Shown here in pieces: positions 22,183-29,445 of a stretch of DNA of 64,000 nt. The position numbers and the translations under genes are program-made. Within the stretch, counting starts at the first letter, position 1, and each line of letters opens with the position of its first letter. Source of the DNA: an uncultured Pelagibacteraceae bacterium. Its GTDB lineage: Bacteria > Pseudomonadota > Alphaproteobacteria > Pelagibacterales > Pelagibacteraceae. The notes under the pieces are model-generated. The model worked only from the letters and a program-made list of their open reading frames with translations, was not told the origin of the DNA and made no database searches. The stretch is from assembly GCA_902532565.1 (NCBI GenBank), contig CACAIR010000001.1, forward strand, positions 1 through 64,000, in the 5' to 3' direction.

Positions 22183-22258
22183 GCCCTTGTAGCTCAGCTG
22201 GTAGAGCAATTGATTTGTAATCAATAGGTCCGCGGTTCGAATCCGTGCGGGGGCACCA
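22183..22258 (+). tRNA. tRNA-Thr(TGT), the intact copy
   Basis: A 76-base cloverleaf with acceptor GCCCTTG/CGGGGGC (two G-U pairs), D-arm GCTCAGCTGGTAGAGC, anticodon stem ATTGA/TCAAT with loop TTTGTAA (anticodon TGT), T-arm GGTTCGAATCC and an encoded CCA. A TTGACT box at 22147 lies upstream but has no good -10 partner. Bases 22212-22258 belong to a segment repeated downstream. The 22006-22361 spacer otherwise holds only repeats and no gene. Confidence 0.96.
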
Positions 22259-22276
22259 TCACTCAATAAAATCAAC
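22212..22276 (+). repeat. att copy 1: 3' half of tRNA-Thr plus 18 bases
   Basis: This 65-base stretch, from GATTTGTAATCAA in the anticodon arm through CCA and 18 bases beyond, is identical to 23144-23208. Its first 50 bases are repeated again at 25195-25244. It marks the left boundary of cassette A inside the functional tRNA. Confidence 0.9.
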
Positions 22277-22315
22277 ACTAATTATTTTTACTAAATTTAA
22301 TAATTTTTAACTGTT

Positions 22316-22344
22316 GTGTCGAGAGTGTGTCGAACTAGTGTCGT
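22316..22344. repeat. Left 11-bp repeats of cassette A (three copies)
   Basis: GTGTCGA at 22316, GTGTCGA at 22327 and GTGTCGT at 22338 are each exactly 11 bases apart, on one face of the helix. They start 104, 115 and 126 bases from the att core. TCAAGTGGTC follows at 22347; its counterpart TCAAGTAGTC follows the repeats of cassette B. Confidence 0.85.
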
Positions 22345-22361
22345 GATCAAGTGGTCGATAC

Positions 22362-22769
22362 TTAGATCTTATTTTCTTTAGTTATTTTTTCTAAAAGTTG
22401 ATTAGATTTTTTTTCTAAGAAATTTTCAATGTTGAATGTAACTATTTTACAGCTTCCCCCTGGATTGTGTTCAATTATTTTCAATGTTTGCCTATCTAGT
22501 GTAAAATCTTTTAAATCTCTTCCAAGCCAAAATATTTCAATAGTTTTGGGATAAGCATTATAATAAATTGATGTCTTATTCATTTTTAATGTGTAGTCAT
22601 TAATCGAATATCTTTGAGCTTTTTTATCACTTATAAATTTAAAATATGTAGCACTAACTGCTTTAGAGTCTGCAAAATTACATTCTAACTGCTTACCAAT
22701 AAGATTGCTTGCATAAGCACTACCACTCAACAACAAACTCAGAACCACGATCCCTAAAAGTTTTTTCAT
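22362..22769 (-). CDS. Small secreted protein of unknown function (cassette A)
   Basis: 135 residues. A signal peptide is clear: MKKLLGIVVLSLLLSGSAYA with cleavage after AYA. The mature part is about 115 residues with two cysteines (about 30 and 106) that could form a disulfide, and ends in a lysine-rich helix. I do not recognise a domain. It is probably periplasmic. It lies with a small membrane protein between the end repeats of cassette A, so it is cargo. Confidence 0.7.
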   Translation of the reverse strand: MKKLLGIVVLSLLLSGSAYASNLIGKQLECNFADSKAVSATYFKFISDKKAQRYSINDYTLKMNKTSIYYNAYPKTIEIFWLGRDLKDFTLDRQTLKIIEHNPGGSCKIVTFNIENFLEKKSNQLLEKITKENKI

Positions 22770-22830
22770 TATTAATCCTGTAAAAATTTATAAGTTAGAA
22801 AACTTAGTTCTAAAATTATGATCATCTCAA

Positions 22831-23049
22831 TCATTTATTTATAAACCCAGCTATAAACCATCTAGTTAAAATATACCAAACTGGTATTGGAGCAAAAACA
22901 ACAAACAAACCACATAGTGCCATGAACCAGTTCCAATTATGAAGTTCTTGAAACCACATCGGAATAAACATAATTATCCAAATTGCTGATAGAGTAAAAT
23001 AAATCCTAGTAAGTCCTTTGCTTACACTTATCTTAGATTTTTTTTTCAT
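22831..23049 (-). CDS. Small two-helix membrane protein (cassette A)
   Basis: 72 residues. A basic N-terminus (KKKSKISVSKGLTR) is followed by two hydrophobic helices (about 17-33 and 40-62) separated by a short tryptophan-rich turn (QELHNWNW). No family is recognised. Same strand as the secreted protein gene and 61 bases upstream of it; the two may be co-transcribed. Confidence 0.65.
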   Translation of the reverse strand: MKKKSKISVSKGLTRIYFTLSAIWIIMFIPMWFQELHNWNWFMALCGLFVVFAPIPVWYILTRWFIAGFINK

Positions 23050-23066
23050 GATCCAAAGTTATCATT

Positions 23067-23084
23067 GTGTCGTACGTGTGTCGA
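23067..23084. repeat. Right 11-bp repeats of cassette A (two copies)
   Basis: GTGTCGT at 23067 and GTGTCGA at 23078 are 11 bases apart, in the same orientation as the left set. They lie 77 and 66 bases before the att core at 23144. Cassette B has its own pair at exactly the same two distances. Confidence 0.85.
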
Positions 23085-23143
23085 GATTACTGATAATTAT
23101 TTATAAGTATTGCTAAAGCATACTTATTTGATTGGTGATACAA

Positions 23144-23208
23144 GATTTGTAATCAATAGGTCCGCGGTTCGAATCCGTGCGGGGGCACCATCACTCAATA
23201 AAATCAAC
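23144..23208 (+). repeat. att copy 2: 3' half of tRNA-Thr plus 18 bases
   Basis: 65 bases identical to 22212-22276. The preceding bases do not continue the tRNA, so there is no D-arm or 5' acceptor strand and it is not a functional tRNA. It is the junction between cassettes A and B. The 23050-23305 spacer holds only this and repeats. Confidence 0.9.
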
Positions 23209-23258
23209 GTTAAATATTTTTTAGAAATTAGAAATTCATCCGTTAAAACACTATAACT

Positions 23259-23287
23259 GTGTTAACAGTGTGTTAGGAGTGTGTTTC
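23259..23287. repeat. Left 11-bp repeats of cassette B (three copies)
   Basis: GTGTTAA at 23259, GTGTTAG at 23270 and GTGTTTC at 23281 are each 11 bases apart. They lie 115, 126 and 137 bases from the att core, 11 bases farther than in cassette A. TCAAGTAGTC follows at 23290. Confidence 0.8.
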
Positions 23288-23305: not shown

Positions 23306-23647
23306 CTAACTTGCGTCTTTGTCTATCCAGTAATCTAGTTCGGACTTGAAAGTGATATCTCTTTTTTTCAAAAAATTTATAAACTTTTCTTTTCTTTCCT
23401 TTTTTATGTTTTTAAGAAAGAGAAGTATTTGTTCATAAGTTAATGATTTAAGATTTTGATTTTCAATTTCTACTTCATCATTAAAATCAATACCATATTG
23501 AGGCATCCCCTTCTTGGGACAGATACTCTCAATATAAACAATACTATCAGGGTATTGTTGTAAGGTATAATAATAAGTAGCTATTTGATTTTCAAATCTA
23601 TCGATCGCATCTTCTCTAAACTCTTTTTTGAGATTTGATTCATTCAT
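23306..23647 (-). CDS. Protein of unknown function, 113 residues (cassette B)
   Basis: I recognise no family. The protein is acidic and helical with aromatic-rich stretches (IATYYYTLQQYPDS), one cysteine, and a lysine-rich C-terminal third (FLKNIKKERKEKFINFLKKRD). No helix-turn-helix, signal peptide or membrane segment is obvious. It diverges from the nuclease gene across a 100-base spacer that contains a perfect inverted repeat, so it could be a regulator or partner of the nuclease/Mom pair; that is inference from position. Confidence 0.6.
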   Translation of the reverse strand: MNESNLKKEFREDAIDRFENQIATYYYTLQQYPDSIVYIESICPKKGMPQYGIDFNDEVEIENQNLKSLTYEQILLFLKNIKKERKEKFINFLKKRDITFKSELDYWIDKDAS

Positions 23648-23747: not shown

Positions 23748-24296
23748 ATGAAAGAAGAAATTATATCTAGAATACAAGATGACCAAAGAGAAAATTTGTT
23801 AAAAAAGCTATTTGGATTATTGGATTCTGATGAAGGTAGAATTGGAGCAGATGCAAAAGATAAATTTGGAAATCGTTTTGAATTAAAAAGTGGTACAAAA
23901 AAGTCTGTAACAACAACCCGTGATGTTGGGGTGCATACACTAAAAAAATGGCTTGGAAAACACTGGATAGTGGGATTTGGAAAAATAAATTCTGGAAAAT
24001 TTGAGTTTGAGGAAATTTATTATCTTTCACCAAATGATATGAAGGGATTTTGTCAAAAAATAGAAAAAAAAATATCTCCAGATTTAAATATATTTAATGA
24101 AGTTCAAAATATACTTAAAAAAGAAAAATACTCTTCTGAAAAAATCGAAAGATTAAAATATCTTGTTAACAGAGGATATACATTAAATAATCCAAAGATA
24201 CCCTACAAATACATTGTTGAAAATGGAGTTTTGTTGAGAAAGTGGAATAACAAGAGTTTGAATGATGCAATTAATTTAAGAAGCAAAAAGATATAA
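23748..24296 (+). CDS. PD-(D/E)xK restriction-endonuclease-like protein
   Basis: 182 residues. The N-terminal half has the catalytic layout of PD-(D/E)xK nucleases: D35 in RIGADAKDKFGN, then E45-L-K47 in RFELKSGT, and a following core strand around HWIVGFGKI with EEIYYLSPNDM. The string G-x-D-A-x-D-x-x-G-N-x-F-E-L-K-S is typical of type II restriction endonucleases and their relatives. The C-terminal part (about 115-182) is basic and may bind DNA. Its 3' end overlaps that of a Mom-like gene by 21 bases, pairing cutter with modifier. Family-level call; recognition sequence unknown. Confidence 0.65.
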   Translation: MKEEIISRIQDDQRENLLKKLFGLLDSDEGRIGADAKDKFGNRFELKSGTKKSVTTTRDVGVHTLKKWLGKHWIVGFGKINSGKFEFEEIYYLSPNDMKGFCQKIEKKISPDLNIFNEVQNILKKEKYSSEKIERLKYLVNRGYTLNNPKIPYKYIVENGVLLRKWNNKSLNDAINLRSKKI

Positions 24297-25079
24297 CTGT
24301 TTATTTTTATCTTCTTCTTTTTTTTTCTTATCAATATCAATATGTCTTTTTTGATCTTTAGAAAGGACATTTTTAAATGGTTTCCACCACAAAGTTTTAA
24401 TATTTAAATAATCAGCATTCATTTGATCGTTCCCTCCATTATTTCTTTTTCTCGAACCATGAAGAGATCCACCACTTTTTTTCTTTGGAATAAAATTTGT
24501 AGCTTTATAAACAGTTCCTTCATGATGTTCATCATCTGCCCAAGAAACTACAGCTTCGACATTTGGAGAATTTGGATATTTTCTATACCAATCTGCCTGC
24601 AAAATTTTTAATGCAGAACCAATTGCACAACTTGCAACAGAAAAAGCATGATGTTGATTATTATTAGAAATTTTTTTATCTTGAACTGTTGGGCTGATCC
24701 ACAGTCTTGCTAACTCTAATATATTTAATGGTGGTATTCCAAATAGTGGGACACTTAATCTAGGATACGCAAAAAGAATAACCCCAACTGGAATTTTGTC
24801 AATCATAACCCAGTATGGTAACTGCGCCATAGTCCTACCTCTGTGCAAGTAATGATAAACCATAATTATTCGTGTAGCCTCTTTTAAGTTGGCTATTTCT
24901 AGAGTTAGTCTTTTTGATAACTTGCCTTTATCTGCATCGAAATTTGGATATCTCCCAAAATTTTTAATCCACTCCATTTCTTTAGCGCCTGGTGGATTAT
25001 AATTAAACCAACCCTTTTTAGTATTTTCTGGAAACTTAACTTCGTGAGCTAAAGTATTTTTAATCAATGATTCCTTCAT
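24276..25079 (-). CDS. Mom-like DNA-modification protein (GNAT fold)
   Basis: 267 residues. The core resembles phage Mu Mom, a GNAT-fold protein that converts adenine to a carbamoylmethyl form protecting DNA from restriction. Matching features are a YHYLHRGR segment (about 76-83), the block ILELARLWISPTV, an alanine-rich helix with LKILQADWYRKYPN, and VSWADDEHHEGTVYKATNF, corresponding to the Mom string of the type S-x-A-D...G-T-x-Y-x-A-T-N-W. A charged lysine-rich tail follows. It is convergent with the nuclease gene. The fold call is by motif only; enzymatic activity is inferred. Confidence 0.6.
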   Translation of the reverse strand: MKESLIKNTLAHEVKFPENTKKGWFNYNPPGAKEMEWIKNFGRYPNFDADKGKLSKRLTLEIANLKEATRIIMVYHYLHRGRTMAQLPYWVMIDKIPVGVILFAYPRLSVPLFGIPPLNILELARLWISPTVQDKKISNNNQHHAFSVASCAIGSALKILQADWYRKYPNSPNVEAVVSWADDEHHEGTVYKATNFIPKKKSGGSLHGSRKRNNGGNDQMNADYLNIKTLWWKPFKNVLSKDQKRHIDIDKKKKEEDKNKQLYLFAS

Positions 25080-25117
25080 TGGTACTATATTATACTTTAT
25101 TTTTTTTATTTTCTACT

Positions 25118-25135
25118 GTGTTAATGGTGTGTTAA
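25118..25135. repeat. Right 11-bp repeats of cassette B (two copies)
   Basis: GTGTTAA occurs at 25118 and 25129, exactly 11 bases apart, 77 and 66 bases before the att core at 25195. These are the same distances as the GTGTCGT/A pair of cassette A. Confidence 0.85.
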
Positions 25136-25194
25136 GATTTGAATTAACTTTTAATTAGCGTTGATAGTTTTTATCTTTTTAAATTTAGACTCTC

Positions 25195-25244
25195 GATTTG
25201 TAATCAATAGGTCCGCGGTTCGAATCCGTGCGGGGGCACCATCA
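25195..25244 (+). repeat. att copy 3: 3' half of tRNA-Thr (outermost)
   Basis: 50 bases repeat the 3' half of tRNA-Thr from GATTTG through CCA and three further bases. It lacks the 18-base extension shared by copies 1 and 2, so it is best read as the original chromosomal 3' half displaced by the insertions. Not a functional tRNA. Confidence 0.88.
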
Positions 25245-25270: not shown

Positions 25271-26308
25271 TTATTTGATATACTTAATTGACATAGGCAT
25301 GCCTTTTTCTAGGTCTTTGTTTGCTTGTTTACCTAAAATCTCCTTATAGTGTTTTGGATGAAGTCCAAATCCTGGACGGACCGATTTAACATTGGTCTCA
25401 GTAATCAACTCGCCTTTTTTAATATCTTCAGCAACATAAAGTGATCTCGAAAAATCTCTTTGGTTTTGCATTTTTTCTGTAATTTCAAAAGTAACTTTAC
25501 CAATCATTTTCTCTGCACTTCTAACGGCATAAACCATTTCCTTAAACTCTTTTTCATCTAGCGAAAAATGAGAATCGACACCTCCATTACTTTTATTTAA
25601 AATTAAATGCTTCTCTATTACTCTTGCTCCATATGGAATAGATACTACCGGTGCCACTATTCCCAAGGAATGATCAGATAAACCGACCATTACATTAAAG
25701 CGTTTTGCAATTTCAGGTATTGTTGCTAAATTTGCTTCTTCATTTGATGTTGGATATGCAGAGGTACATTTAAGAATGATGATCTGATTGTTGCCTTGTT
25801 TTTTGCACGCTTCAATAGCCAATCGAATATCATCTTCGCCAGCAATTCCAGTTGAAATAATAACTGGTTTACCTTTAGATGCTACAAGTTCAATTAATGG
25901 AATATCCGTGATTTCATATGACGCGATTTTATAGGCTGGCACATTAAGTTTTTCTAAAAGTTCTACTGCTGATGGATCAAAGGGAGAAGAAAAACAAACC
26001 AATCCTTCTTCAGCTGCTGTTTTAAACAAATCTTGATGCCACTCCCAAGGCAGATGAGCCTCTTTATAGAGATCATACAGATACTTTCCATCCCAAGCTG
26101 TACCATGATCAATTTTAAACTGACTATTCTTTACATCTAAAGTAATTGTTTCTGCCTTGTAAGTTTGAAGTTTAACACAATCAGCGCCAGCACGTTTCGC
26201 TGCGCGAATAGTTTCCTTTGCCAATTCTAACTTACCATTATGATTAGCGGATAATTCAGCAATTATAAATGTTTTTTTTTTTAAAAAATCAAATGTTCCT
26301 ATTTTCAT
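25271..26308 (-). CDS. pseI: Pseudaminic acid synthase (NeuB family)
   Basis: 345 residues from ATG at 26308, preferred over a TTG at 26320 that lies inside the upstream gene. PseI condenses a 2,4-diacetamido-trideoxy-altrose with phosphoenolpyruvate. The TIM barrel carries FIIAELSANHNGKLELAKETI, KLQTYKAETITLD, GTAWDGKYLYDLYKEAHLPWEWH and GLSDHSLG; the C-terminal antifreeze-like SAF domain begins near SRSLYVAEDIKKGE and ends with RPGFGLHPKHYKEILGK. These strings favour PseI over sialic acid synthase. It follows the HAD gene by one base. Other Pse enzymes are not in the window. Confidence 0.85.
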   Translation of the reverse strand: MKIGTFDFLKKKTFIIAELSANHNGKLELAKETIRAAKRAGADCVKLQTYKAETITLDVKNSQFKIDHGTAWDGKYLYDLYKEAHLPWEWHQDLFKTAAEEGLVCFSSPFDPSAVELLEKLNVPAYKIASYEITDIPLIELVASKGKPVIISTGIAGEDDIRLAIEACKKQGNNQIIILKCTSAYPTSNEEANLATIPEIAKRFNVMVGLSDHSLGIVAPVVSIPYGARVIEKHLILNKSNGGVDSHFSLDEKEFKEMVYAVRSAEKMIGKVTFEITEKMQNQRDFSRSLYVAEDIKKGELITETNVKSVRPGFGLHPKHYKEILGKQANKDLEKGMPMSIKYIK

Positions 26309-26309
26309 T

Positions 26310-26987
26310 TTAATGACCAAACATTTTTTTTAATTGTTGAAGTGATAATTCATCTAAAGAATTAACCCTAAAATCAGCCTCATATTCTAGTGACACTTTT
26401 ACTTTCTTATATTCCCCTGTGAGAACTTGCACAGTCCTAAATCCATCTTTTTTTAAATTTACAAAATCCTTTTTAGGATTATCACCAATGTAAATCAAGT
26501 CTTTTGGTTTGGCTCTCTCCCATTCTAATATCTTATAAAAACAATAAGTAGAAGGCTTTGAATAATTCACGCCATAATTGTGTGTAAGCATCATATTTCT
26601 GAAATACTTTTCAATTTTTAATGCTTTAATTTTTTTGGTTTGAACAATTTTGTTACCATCCGTTAACAAATATTTGGGATATTCTTTAAATCGCTCCAAA
26701 CAACTTCTCCCAGATACAGATAAGGAGATTTTAGGTTTATGTAATCTATAAACAGACAAGCATTTTTGTATGAGTGTTTTATTTGATAGATGGTATTTTC
26801 TTAAAACAAAGTCAAATATTTTTCCTCTTCCCTGTTTTTGTAAAGTTTGAACAAATTCGGAATAGATTTTTTTTGACACTGCTACTTGATATTTCTTAGA
26901 TAAATAGTCTGCAACAGCTTTAAAACCACTTTTAACATAAGTGATTTCCTTATATAAAGTATCGTCTAAATCAAATACAATAATCAT
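26310..26987 (-). CDS. HAD-superfamily hydrolase of the sugar cluster
   Basis: 225 residues from ATG at 26987, which overlaps the preceding stop codon as ATGA. HAD motifs are present: FDLDDTLY (motif I, nucleophile D), LLTDGNK (motif II), the lysine in NYSKPST (motif III) and YIGDNPKKDF (motif IV). An alpha-helical cap lies between motifs I and II. It probably dephosphorylates a sugar phosphate intermediate in this cluster, which is inferred from position; substrate cannot be read from the sequence. Confidence 0.75.
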   Translation of the reverse strand: MIIVFDLDDTLYKEITYVKSGFKAVADYLSKKYQVAVSKKIYSEFVQTLQKQGRGKIFDFVLRKYHLSNKTLIQKCLSVYRLHKPKISLSVSGRSCLERFKEYPKYLLTDGNKIVQTKKIKALKIEKYFRNMMLTHNYGVNYSKPSTYCFYKILEWERAKPKDLIYIGDNPKKDFVNLKKDGFRTVQVLTGEYKKVKVSLEYEADFRVNSLDELSLQQLKKMFGH

Positions 26988-28882
26988 AGATATGTATCGC
27001 TCAAATGCCTTACTAACGTCACTTGCTTGGTTGAAGCTAAAAATGGATATGAACTTATATTCGTCCCCAAAGCTTCTAAATAAAACCAATAAAAGGTGTC
27101 TAAACCAGCATGAATAGAAAGCATAGATGCTCCTCCAACGCGCGGATTACATTCAATTAAGAATACGTTACCAGACTCATCTATTATAGCTTGTAAAATA
27201 ATATGCCCGTAAAAGTCAAACTTGTTCAGAAAATTTACAAACTTATCCTTCAAAGATGTATTTTCAAAATTAGTAGTAACTTGAGATTCTCCATCAACTA
27301 CCTTAACACGCTTTCGCATAACTAGACCTTTGACTTTATTATTTTTTGTTACATATGCATCCACTGAAATTTCATACCCTTCTTTGAAAGGTTGAAATAT
27401 TGGATCTTTTAGAGAGGCTGCATGTAGTTGTGCTTGAGTAGCATCTAAGTTTAACCCAATCGATAATGCACCGGCTCCATAACGTTCTTTCACCACAAAC
27501 TTCTTTGAATTCAATTGTTCTAAGTTAATTGAGGAAGGAACAGCAACTTTTTTAAGACTTTCAAGTTCAGCAAACTTAAGTTTATCTAGACAAGTATTAA
27601 CTGTTGAAGGTTCTGAAACCATTACTTCAATTCCACTATCAGAAAGGATTGATTTATTACGTGCAAAAAACTCCAACTCACCATCTCTGGTTGGAATTAT
27701 GGCCCCAACATTATTAGACTTGCAATAAGTAATGAGTTCACTGATATTTAATTCATTTATTTTGGGCATTTGCCAAAACACATCTACGAAATATCTTCCA
27801 ATACAAGTATTATCCATATCTGCCCCAAAAATCTTTGCTTTCTTGGAGACTTTTTTTACTCCAGCCCTAACTGCTTTAATAAGAGGCACTTTCTTAGAAA
27901 TACTCGTAATTAGAACATTTGAATTATCGGAAGGTTGTTGCTCACTGTTTCGGTTTTTCTCAAATTCTATTATATAAGGAATTGCAGTTTCAAGATCTTC
28001 TTCGGGTAACCAATTTACCGCTTTTTTTAGTTCGTTCAGATCGGCTTGAGATGCCTCAAAAGGTATATCTGAAGCTACCTCTTGTTTTATCATCTTTGGG
28101 AAATGACTATTTAATATCTTCAAAACGTCTGCTACACTTCGCGAACGACCTGTTCCTAAATTTATGACGCCCTCGAATTCTGAAAGCCCTAATTTGAGTA
28201 ACCCTTTAGCTGAATCCTTAGCATATAAATAATCAAATATTCCTTCAGGCCTGTATATTAAAATTTTTTTCTCCTGTATCAAATCTCTAATCCAGCGAGA
28301 AATGACATCGCGAGAGTTTTTTCCATAACCTCTAAAAATACGGACACAAACAGACGTGAAACTATCTCTTTTGAAAGTTCGTAGAAAGTCCAACTCAACT
28401 TCATGTGCTAATTTAGCCATTCCAGTTAAGTTTCTTGGAGAAATTGGATCTGTTTCCTTAAGATTTACTGGTTTAGTACAAGCTGAATCAAAACTGTATA
28501 ATGACTTTTCATAAATCAAATAACTTGATGGAAAAACAACCCTTTTGAGTCCTTTAACATTACGCATCAAGGTCATTAGATGATTACTTAACCTTACGTT
28601 GTGCCAAAAATTCTCATCCCAATGATCATATGTTTCTTTGGATCTTTCAAAAGTAGCAGCTAAATGAATAAATATTTCTGGGTTAAAGTTATCAAGCTCT
28701 TCTTGAGTAATATAATTTAGGTCTCCACGTCTAAAAATTACCTCTTTCGGAAATCCCTCAGGGATAGGCTGTAAATCGCATGCCATCACAGTGGCCCCAT
28801 TTTGAATTAAAATAGGTATCATTTCGCTGCCAATTACACCTGCAGCTCCACTTACAAATACTCTTCTACCACGATAATTCAT
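26984..28882 (-). CDS. Fusion of an NAD-dependent epimerase-like domain with an ATP-grasp domain
   Basis: 632 residues. Residues 1 to about 310 are an extended SDR domain with the NAD-binding glycine motif GAAGVIGSEM. The usual catalytic YxxxK reads TGMAK, so the tyrosine is replaced by threonine. Residues about 325-632 form an ATP-grasp ligase: VVKERYGAGALSIG in the nucleotide region, GYEISVDAYV, and the metal-binding FLIECNPRVGGAS. ATP-grasp enzymes join a carboxylate to an amine or thiol. The gene sits between an acetyltransferase and a HAD gene, each overlapping, so the product probably tailors the same nine-carbon sugar. Confidence 0.75.
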   Translation of the reverse strand: MNYRGRRVFVSGAAGVIGSEMIPILIQNGATVMACDLQPIPEGFPKEVIFRRGDLNYITQEELDNFNPEIFIHLAATFERSKETYDHWDENFWHNVRLSNHLMTLMRNVKGLKRVVFPSSYLIYEKSLYSFDSACTKPVNLKETDPISPRNLTGMAKLAHEVELDFLRTFKRDSFTSVCVRIFRGYGKNSRDVISRWIRDLIQEKKILIYRPEGIFDYLYAKDSAKGLLKLGLSEFEGVINLGTGRSRSVADVLKILNSHFPKMIKQEVASDIPFEASQADLNELKKAVNWLPEEDLETAIPYIIEFEKNRNSEQQPSDNSNVLITSISKKVPLIKAVRAGVKKVSKKAKIFGADMDNTCIGRYFVDVFWQMPKINELNISELITYCKSNNVGAIIPTRDGELEFFARNKSILSDSGIEVMVSEPSTVNTCLDKLKFAELESLKKVAVPSSINLEQLNSKKFVVKERYGAGALSIGLNLDATQAQLHAASLKDPIFQPFKEGYEISVDAYVTKNNKVKGLVMRKRVKVVDGESQVTTNFENTSLKDKFVNFLNKFDFYGHIILQAIIDESGNVFLIECNPRVGGASMLSIHAGLDTFYWFYLEALGTNISSYPFLASTKQVTLVRHLSDTYL

Positions 28883-29445
28883 CAGACATCACCTTTTACG
28901 ATTCCATGGACAATCGAGTCGTAAAATTTTCCAAATTCAAATATATGATTTCGCATAACTCCCTCTTTCTTGTAACCATTATCCTCAAGAATTGAGATAT
29001 GAAATTTTCTAAATGCAAAGCTTTCTGTAAACATGCGGTTAAATTTCATTTCTTCAAAAACCACTTTTTTTATCAAAGATATAAAATTATTCATATCCTC
29101 TTTATAAAGTTTGTTATCCTTAGCTCTTTGATCATCCAAAAGAAATGACATTTCTGCCCTTTTATCTTTCCAGGATAAATTAACTAAACCTCCATAACCG
29201 ATTAATTGATTTTTTTTAAGAAAGCTAAAAAGTAACTGTTTTGTTTCATTATCACTAAAAAAGGATTTTACTTCATTTTTAAAATAAAGGGCCTGATCAT
29301 CTGACGATAATTTGACAGCTTGTCTCAAAATAGGCATCTGTGCATTCCTCCATTTCCGAATACTTTCCATGTCTTCCTGACGAATAGGAATTATATTGTA
29401 GTTACCTTGGGAAAAGTTGTTTTGCTCAAGTGCTATATATTTCAT
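28882..29445 (-). CDS. GNAT acetyltransferase, possibly PseH-like
   Basis: 187 residues of the RimJ/PseH type of GNAT fold. IRPIR-like start (NIIPIRQEDMESIRKWRN), an acetyl-CoA region near GYGGLVNLSWKDKRAEMSFLLDD, and FRKFHISILEDNGYKKEGVMRNH, the usual closing motif of this group. In pseudaminic acid synthesis PseH N-acetylates the 4-amino sugar before PseI acts, and pseI is three genes downstream. First gene of the cluster, one-base overlap with the next. Confidence 0.7.
   Translation of the reverse strand: MKYIALEQNNFSQGNYNIIPIRQEDMESIRKWRNAQMPILRQAVKLSSDDQALYFKNEVKSFFSDNETKQLLFSFLKKNQLIGYGGLVNLSWKDKRAEMSFLLDDQRAKDNKLYKEDMNNFISLIKKVVFEEMKFNRMFTESFAFRKFHISILEDNGYKKEGVMRNHIFEFGKFYDSIVHGIVKGDV

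Follow-up and report, generated by a model that had tools for sequence, protein, structure and literature searches.

Mom is known as an anti-restriction enzyme of phages. The mark set by Mu Mom is a methylcarbamoyl group, its consensus is (C/G)A(C/G)N(C/T), and we know of no cognate nuclease gene for Mom in phage Mu. The restriction endonuclease PvuII cuts CAGCTG and is blocked by modification rather than dependent on it.

Excerpts of two papers describe Mom from phages (PMC12707154, PMC6483171). In excerpts of Iyer et al. (2021; PMC7824862), Mom domains of jumbo phages are fused to REase-fold domains and predicted to be restriction-modification systems, and momylation systems are said to occur in both phages and bacteria. 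As for the host lineage, the excerpted text of a 2007 study notes that tRNA genes flank a hypervariable region of SAR11 and reports that integron attC sites were not found in SAR11 hypervariable regions (PMC2217521).

A sequence-only reading of the window, by which we mean the whole 64,000-nucleotide stretch of Pelagibacteraceae DNA analysed here, had picked out a Mom-like protein encoded beside a putative nuclease and knew of no published precedent for such a combination. That statement holds in part. Fusions of Mom with a nuclease are predicted as restriction-modification systems in the excerpts of PMC7824862, whereas a pairing of Mom with a PvuII-type nuclease was not found in the literature on Mom with restriction, as covered by open-licence papers. 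The principle of Mom with a nuclease is in print already, and the PvuII-Mom pairing looks like a new variant of it.

The two genes are the cargo of a tRNA-bounded cassette

We found the two genes exactly as they had been read, including the 182-residue ORF with its D35...E45-L-K47 layout, and they converge tail to tail with a 21-base overlap, both ending in TAA (Table 1). The sequence-only reading had missed two points, namely that the nuclease belongs to the PvuII family and that a cassette bounded by copies of a tRNA-Thr 3′ end carries both genes as its cargo. A 33-bp core of this 3′ end is present in three exact copies, recurring at 23158 and 25209, where 0 recurrences would be expected by chance, and the stretch that is identical among the three attachment copies extends to 50 bp. 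The copies enclose a stack of two intervals, 932 and 2051 bp long. The second cassette (2.05 kb) contains a 113-aa ORF, the nuclease gene and the Mom homologue; no methyltransferase ORF was found in it, the 113-aa ORF having no methyltransferase match in Pfam. Right after the third attachment copy, at 25271-29445, lies what looks by eye like a cluster for the synthesis of a sialic-acid-type sugar (NeuB-like synthase, epimerase-like protein and GNAT).

Table 1. Features of the tRNA-Thr cassette site, in window coordinates
Feature	Position	Strand	Remarks
tRNA-Thr (TGT), intact target gene of the cassette site	22183..22258	+	ARAGORN
Attachment-site copy 1, 50 bp (tRNA anticodon region to 3′ end + TCA)	22212..22261	+	
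First cassette, 0.93 kb (932 bp)	22259..23190	.	
Small ORFs of first cassette	22362-22769, 22831-23049	-, -	
Attachment-site copy 2	23144..23193	+	identical 50 bp
Left arm repeats, GTGTTA-type, candidate integrase arm sites	23258..23287	.	matched by the cassette's right end
113-aa ORF	23306..23647	-	in second cassette
PvuII-family restriction endonuclease homologue, 182 aa	23748..24296	+	D35/E45/K47, NNPKIP at 147-152
Mom-family DNA adenine acyltransferase homologue, 267 aa	24276..25079	-	conserved H76 Y77 R125 S150 S179 D182 Y191 N195
Right arm repeats, GTGTTA-type	25116..25136	.	sequence
Attachment-site copy 3	25195..25244	+	identical 50 bp

The nuclease belongs to the PvuII family

Judged by homology, the 182-aa protein is a member of the PvuII family and of PD-(D/E)xK type, as had been proposed from its layout. 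It matches the Pfam PvuII model PF09225 with an E of 2.6e-8 (34.4 bits vs a cut-off of 25), although barely above that cut-off, at 25.5 bits, in a six-frame search of the genome, and it matches the PADLOC type II REase models with an E of 2.6e-10. A phmmer search of the PDB gave an E of 1.2e-5 for natural PvuII and of 2.5e-12 for a single-chain PvuII construct, the latter figure being inflated by a construct that contains PvuII twice. The protein and the solved PvuII chains have in common the catalytic block GRxGxDAxDxxGxxxELKS, with the PD-(D/E)xK residues D35, E45 and K47 in the family positions of the alignment, and a C-terminal block that reads LNNPKIPyKYivEnG in the nuclease and INNPKIPvKYvmEhG in PvuII. 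The frame is intact.

The nuclease has diverged from the PvuII-like proteins, to which it is 32-38% identical in our alignments. It keeps the NN of NNPKIP and is without the HHH segment of its relatives, so its recognition site may differ from that of PvuII. The Pfam scan of the 182 aa named no nuclease family besides PvuII and found no modified-base reader domain, and NCBIfam gave 0 matches for the nuclease and 0 for the Mom homologue. The AlphaFold2 model of the nuclease was built from a 3-sequence alignment only and has a pLDDT of 42.7.

The neighbouring protein belongs to the Mom family

The 267-aa protein is assigned to the Mom family, with a GNAT fold, by its sequence and its predicted structure, which bears out the earlier recognition of Mom-like motifs. 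It matches Pfam PF25680 (Mom) with an E of 1.6e-13 (51.3 bits vs a cut-off of 27.1) and PHROG 1384 ("Mom-like") with an E of 4.8e-16. The solved structure of Mu Mom (8bv8) was not found with the window Mom as a single-sequence query, and was matched with an E of 1.5e-30 by a profile of 7 Mom sequences that includes it. The structure model, built from 41 sequences, has a pLDDT of 72.7 and a pTM of 0.72, and the GNAT core that the sequence-only reading had expected is present in it. The top match of this model was 8bv8 both in Foldseek (E 6.1e-7) and in VIA-align (Z 15.6, 166 residues, rmsd 3.6, 24% identical), where the runners-up were other GNATs with Z of 11.3 and lower.

Among the 41 Mom homologues, H76, Y77, G99, R125, G188, Y191, A193 and N195 are invariant (41/41), D182 is kept in 38/41, and the S150 column holds S in 38/41 and T in 3/41. 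In our reading of the alignment, S150 appears to fall in the column of a position that is alanine in 8bv8, which we take to be the inactive mutant S124A. Mu Mom and the window Mom are of the same family by profile and by fold, and the positions common to both form the motifs H-Y, E-x-x-R, S, S-x-x-D and G-T-x-Y-x-A-x-N. The window Mom differs from Mu Mom in sequence (24% identical over the aligned fold), in its longer N-terminus and in its setting, which is a bacterial cassette with a nuclease alongside. When compared with its 74%-identical relative in the viral contig L012 over 266 codons, the gene showed a pN of 0.16 against a pS of 0.80, the latter being saturated, which indicates that the Mom homologue is under purifying selection.

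At the loci opened, PvuII-like relatives of the nuclease adjoin a methyltransferase

Outside the own genome, the searches turned up PvuII-like genes in 5 Acinetobacter plasmid records and in 2 viral contigs. A methyltransferase adjoins the nuclease at 4/4 of the loci opened (L004, L005, L092 and L093, of the 7 found). The methyltransferase of L004 runs across the record start and is seen as two separate pieces; that of L092 matches PF01555 with an E of 7.6e-48, and L093 has the same ORF by sequence. In the viral contigs L092 and L093, the nuclease and the methyltransferase lie amid phage structural-looking ORFs.

The window has in common with the PvuII system the Pfam family, the catalytic signature and the NNPKIP tail of the nuclease. 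However, where the four opened loci have a methyltransferase beside the nuclease, the window has Mom instead. The nuclease of L005, moreover, has a fused helix-turn-helix, which the window nuclease does not. As in type II restriction-modification systems, the nuclease gene adjoins a modification gene, here with the 21-base overlap, but the modifier is Mom and not a methyltransferase, and for this reason we speak of a type II-like arrangement and do not file it as type II. The own genome, which is 66.85% complete, has one match to PF01555, an N6/N4-type methyltransferase family and the one such family searched in it; the gene, whose neighbour is ribonuclease HII-like, presumably corresponds to the alphaproteobacterial CcrM.

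The closest relatives of Mom are paired with an ASCH-domain gene

The closest relatives of the window Mom that we found are 74-76% identical to it and come from the viral contig L012 and a SAR116 record, AG-919-E16 (L094). The L012 protein is 75% identical over residues 6-266, and the L094 protein is 76% identical over residues 6-54, after which the contig ends inside Mom. In both, an ASCH-domain gene (Pfam E 3.2e-6 and 1.6e-4, respectively) stands head-to-head with Mom, with an overlap of 23 bases given the ATG starts as chosen (L012:5628-6783 and L094:7601-8155). The ASCH protein may possibly be a reader or regulator of the Mom mark. Like the window, L094 has a tRNA gene nearby (tRNA-Arg); L094 has a phage-type integrase as well, and both lie upstream. 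The ASCH gene, however, is at the 5′ side of Mom, whereas the nuclease of the window is at its 3′ side.

No PvuII-like protein was found in the 16.6-kb viral record of L012, and the sole match in the SAR116 genome of L094 spans 36 residues with an E of 0.046, a weak and partial one that we discounted. Conversely, the own genome (66.85% complete) showed no ASCH match.

A second nuclease-Mom pair was not found

PF09225 was found in 1/397 genomes of the order and in 1/385 genomes of the class, the own genome both times, and PF25680 was above its cut-off in 1/397 genomes of the order. A match of G200 to PF25680 (E 4.3e-4, below the cut-off) was rejected, since by eye it looks like a GNAT of phage type with a terminase-like neighbour. 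A second nuclease-Mom pair was found neither in the 397 genomes of the order and the 385 of the class nor at the 80 viral Mom loci, and thus the co-occurrence outside this locus to which the sequence-only reading had looked did not emerge from the collections scanned. A further family search gave 0 of 136, which is weak, since it missed the truncated Mom of G397 itself.

The reach of these searches depended on the query, and scans of the large collections reach mainly close relatives. The window Mom as a single protein found 0 matches among the genome and viral contigs, a two-sequence Mom profile found one genome contig (L094) and the viral contig L012, and the 7-sequence profile found at least 173 relatives in the viral contigs, of which the best 80 of 173 were scanned for PvuII-like frames. 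Searches of phages and plasmids gave Mom matches in 7 phage records and 1 plasmid; 5 of the 7 phage loci and the plasmid locus were among those scanned. No PvuII-like frame was found at the scanned Mom loci, the best 80 viral ones included, by HMM or phmmer (best stray E 0.43), and the same scan did recover the window nuclease and two plasmid PvuII-like loci. From the side of the nuclease, a search of phages and a single-sequence scan of the viral contigs both found no PvuII-like protein, and scans of the viral contigs with two alignments returned only the two methyltransferase-type loci L092 and L093.

Candidate Mom-nuclease fusions occur in viral contigs

The momylation fusions in the excerpts of PMC7824862 and the window both pair Mom with a REase-fold nuclease. 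When 10 viral Mom proteins that have long additional segments were scanned with Pfam, further candidates emerged: those of L047, L052 and L081 have weak DUF559, MTES_1575 or Vsr-type nuclease matches below the curated cut-offs, and those of L020, L064 and L084 resemble them by eye. Whereas the candidates of L047, L052 and L081 are one chain with a DUF559/Vsr/MTES_1575-like part, the window has a PvuII-like nuclease as a separate convergent gene in a bacterial cassette.

The N-terminal parts of the L047, L052, L081 and L020 proteins contain repeats matching the GerD model, and by eye these repeats look like NUMOD-type homing-endonuclease repeats; some of the viral Mom fusions may act in homing and not in restriction. 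Other domain combinations were also seen. In Roseobacter phage CRP-212 (L008:3043-3792), the Mom domain is fused to a MazG pyrophosphohydrolase domain. A contig of the viral collection (L014:4813-7983) encodes a 1056-aa protein with a central Mom domain, the C-terminus of which is C5-cytosine methyltransferase-like by eye.

The tRNA-Thr 3′ end is a hotspot for mini-cassettes in the genus

The 33-mer, with at most one mismatch, is present in 141/201 genomes of the genus, and at least 49/201, the own genome included, have it twice or more on the same strand. Together with 34 multi-copy regions (L130-L163), the window gave 35 loci and 46 intervals, which range from 411 to 7742 bp with a median of 1.6 kb. 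All 46 intervals were kept, including a few, such as L152.1 and L153.1, which look different at their ends or hold chromosomal-type genes, and not every interval between tRNA-Thr copies need be a cassette. The left and right ends of one interval have a mean of 4.8 8-mers in common, compared with 1.2 for shuffled partners. In this test 0/5000 shuffles were as high as the observed mean, and 6/46 intervals share no 8-mer. Such matching between the two ends of the same interval is as expected for paired integrase arm sites, and in many intervals the arm repeats found at both ends are specific to that interval.

Among the 125 cassette proteins, an integrase was detected in L130 only, where Pfam confirmed it; the three-sequence integrase profile used is one that remote integrases may escape. 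The own genome has one phage-integrase match, on a different contig. These observations suggest that the tRNA-Thr mini-cassettes are elements moved by an integrase in trans. In the genus, the tRNA-Thr 3′ end is a hotspot for mini-cassettes, which are often stacked and mostly have no integrase detected. We read the genus as SAR11 from its small, AT-rich genomes, its gene content and the marine SAR116 relative.

The 125 cassette proteins, which include the window nuclease, contain among the matches listed (top 25 of 77 for Pfam and top 25 of 47 for PADLOC) restriction-type families such as Mrr, ResIII, MmeI and type IIG, together with pseudopilin-like, trypsin-like and unassigned ones. The L140 cassette holds a DpnI-family protein by Pfam. 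Cassettes in L136 and L152 have a left end and a 113-aa ORF nearly identical to those of the window and differ in the remaining cargo, that of L152 including an Mrr-type nuclease. An N-terminal methylation motif of the pseudopilin-like kind occurs in 10/125 cassette proteins, and the cassettes of L134, L158 and L163 carry, by eye, tandem pseudopilin-like proteins.

Discussion

The reading that we favour, and to which we give an even chance, is that the nuclease and the Mom homologue form a minimal type II-like restriction-modification system in which adenine acylation by Mom replaces the methyltransferase. The Mom homologue would place an acyl-type group on the N6 position of host-DNA adenines, and the PvuII-type nuclease would cut incoming DNA without this mark. 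The mark would block the nuclease, both enzymes would be active, and the pair would act in phage defence. Put in full, as a PvuII-type system whose methyltransferase has been replaced by Mom, with a bulky non-methyl adenine group as the self mark and an integrase-less SAR11 mini-cassette as the carrier, the proposal is one we make somewhat more tentatively. A restriction-modification system with a Mom-type mark had already been among the proposals of the sequence-only reading; both family assignments and the adjacency speak for it and it is the most economical reading, but no second pair was found.

The argument for one system starts from the intact active site of the nuclease, which needs a protector, and the neighbour that could serve as one here is Mom. 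The position of Mom, in the place taken by a methyltransferase at all of the opened PvuII-like loci, adds slightly to this support. The restriction genes in other cassettes of the same site and the published and candidate Mom-nuclease fusions count in the same direction. In a pattern check on the textbook specificities, moreover, the Mom consensus fits CAGCT on both strands of CAGCTG, so that all PvuII-type sites would in principle be open to protection by an enzyme of the Mom kind. Avoidance of PvuII sites was not seen in the window (24 CAGCTG observed vs 16.6 expected), which we regard as neutral.

What speaks most strongly against a single system is the lone occurrence of the pair, together with the association of the Mom clade with ASCH elsewhere. 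This leads to a second explanation, which we consider a serious though lesser possibility, namely that the two genes are independent passengers: Mom would be an anti-restriction or self-modification protein from the Mom-ASCH lineage, and the nuclease a separate defence gene, which the cell could tolerate if its activity were low, its sites rare or a methyltransferase encoded elsewhere. Since both of the closest Mom relatives, from SAR116 and from a virus, stand head-to-head with ASCH over the same 23-base overlap, Mom of this clade exists apart from this nuclease, and neither the L012 record nor the SAR116 genome has a convincing PvuII-like protein. It is also consistent with independent passengers that cassettes of the same site carry unrelated cargo behind a common left end and that a second instance of the pair was not found. 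None of the 41 unfused-type Mom proteins, the window Mom included, matches a PADLOC defence model (0/41), which likewise counts against one system, as does the missing HHH segment of the nuclease, given that its site may differ from that of PvuII. Because the own genome is incomplete and was searched for PF01555 only, a protector could be encoded elsewhere in it. However, a PvuII-type nuclease with its active site intact would be harmful if nothing protected the host DNA, and a methyltransferase was present at every other PvuII-like locus opened. The 21-base overlap, furthermore, packs the nuclease and Mom together in a cassette whose sole other cargo is the 113-aa ORF.

It is unlikely that the nuclease is inactive or regulatory and that Mom alone matters, for example by shielding the cassette, or a helper phage, against restriction. 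The divergence of the nuclease from PvuII-like proteins and its poorly scored structure model, drawn from three sequences, would fit such a role, but all three PD-(D/E)xK residues and the C-terminal NNPKIP are kept and the frame is intact. Least probable of all is the other proposal of the sequence-only reading, in which the nuclease would be directed at phage DNA that bears the Mom mark. It would then be modification-dependent (type IV-like), and Mom itself would be a bait or relic. Such a nuclease would be useful, Mom being known from phages in the excerpts of PMC12707154 and PMC6483171, but we rejected it as the main reading because, with Mom encoded in the same cassette, the nuclease would threaten the host itself. 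The block of PvuII by modification and the 182 aa with no reader domain found by Pfam speak against it as well.

If the nuclease and Mom do work as one restriction-modification system, Mom chemistry, which is known from a phage anti-restriction enzyme, would mark self DNA for a bacterial restriction system. Whether Mom protects against a defined PvuII-family nuclease could then be tested in vitro with just these two proteins. The tRNA-Thr mini-cassettes, for their part, would be carriers of restriction genes in a probably streamlined and very abundant marine lineage.
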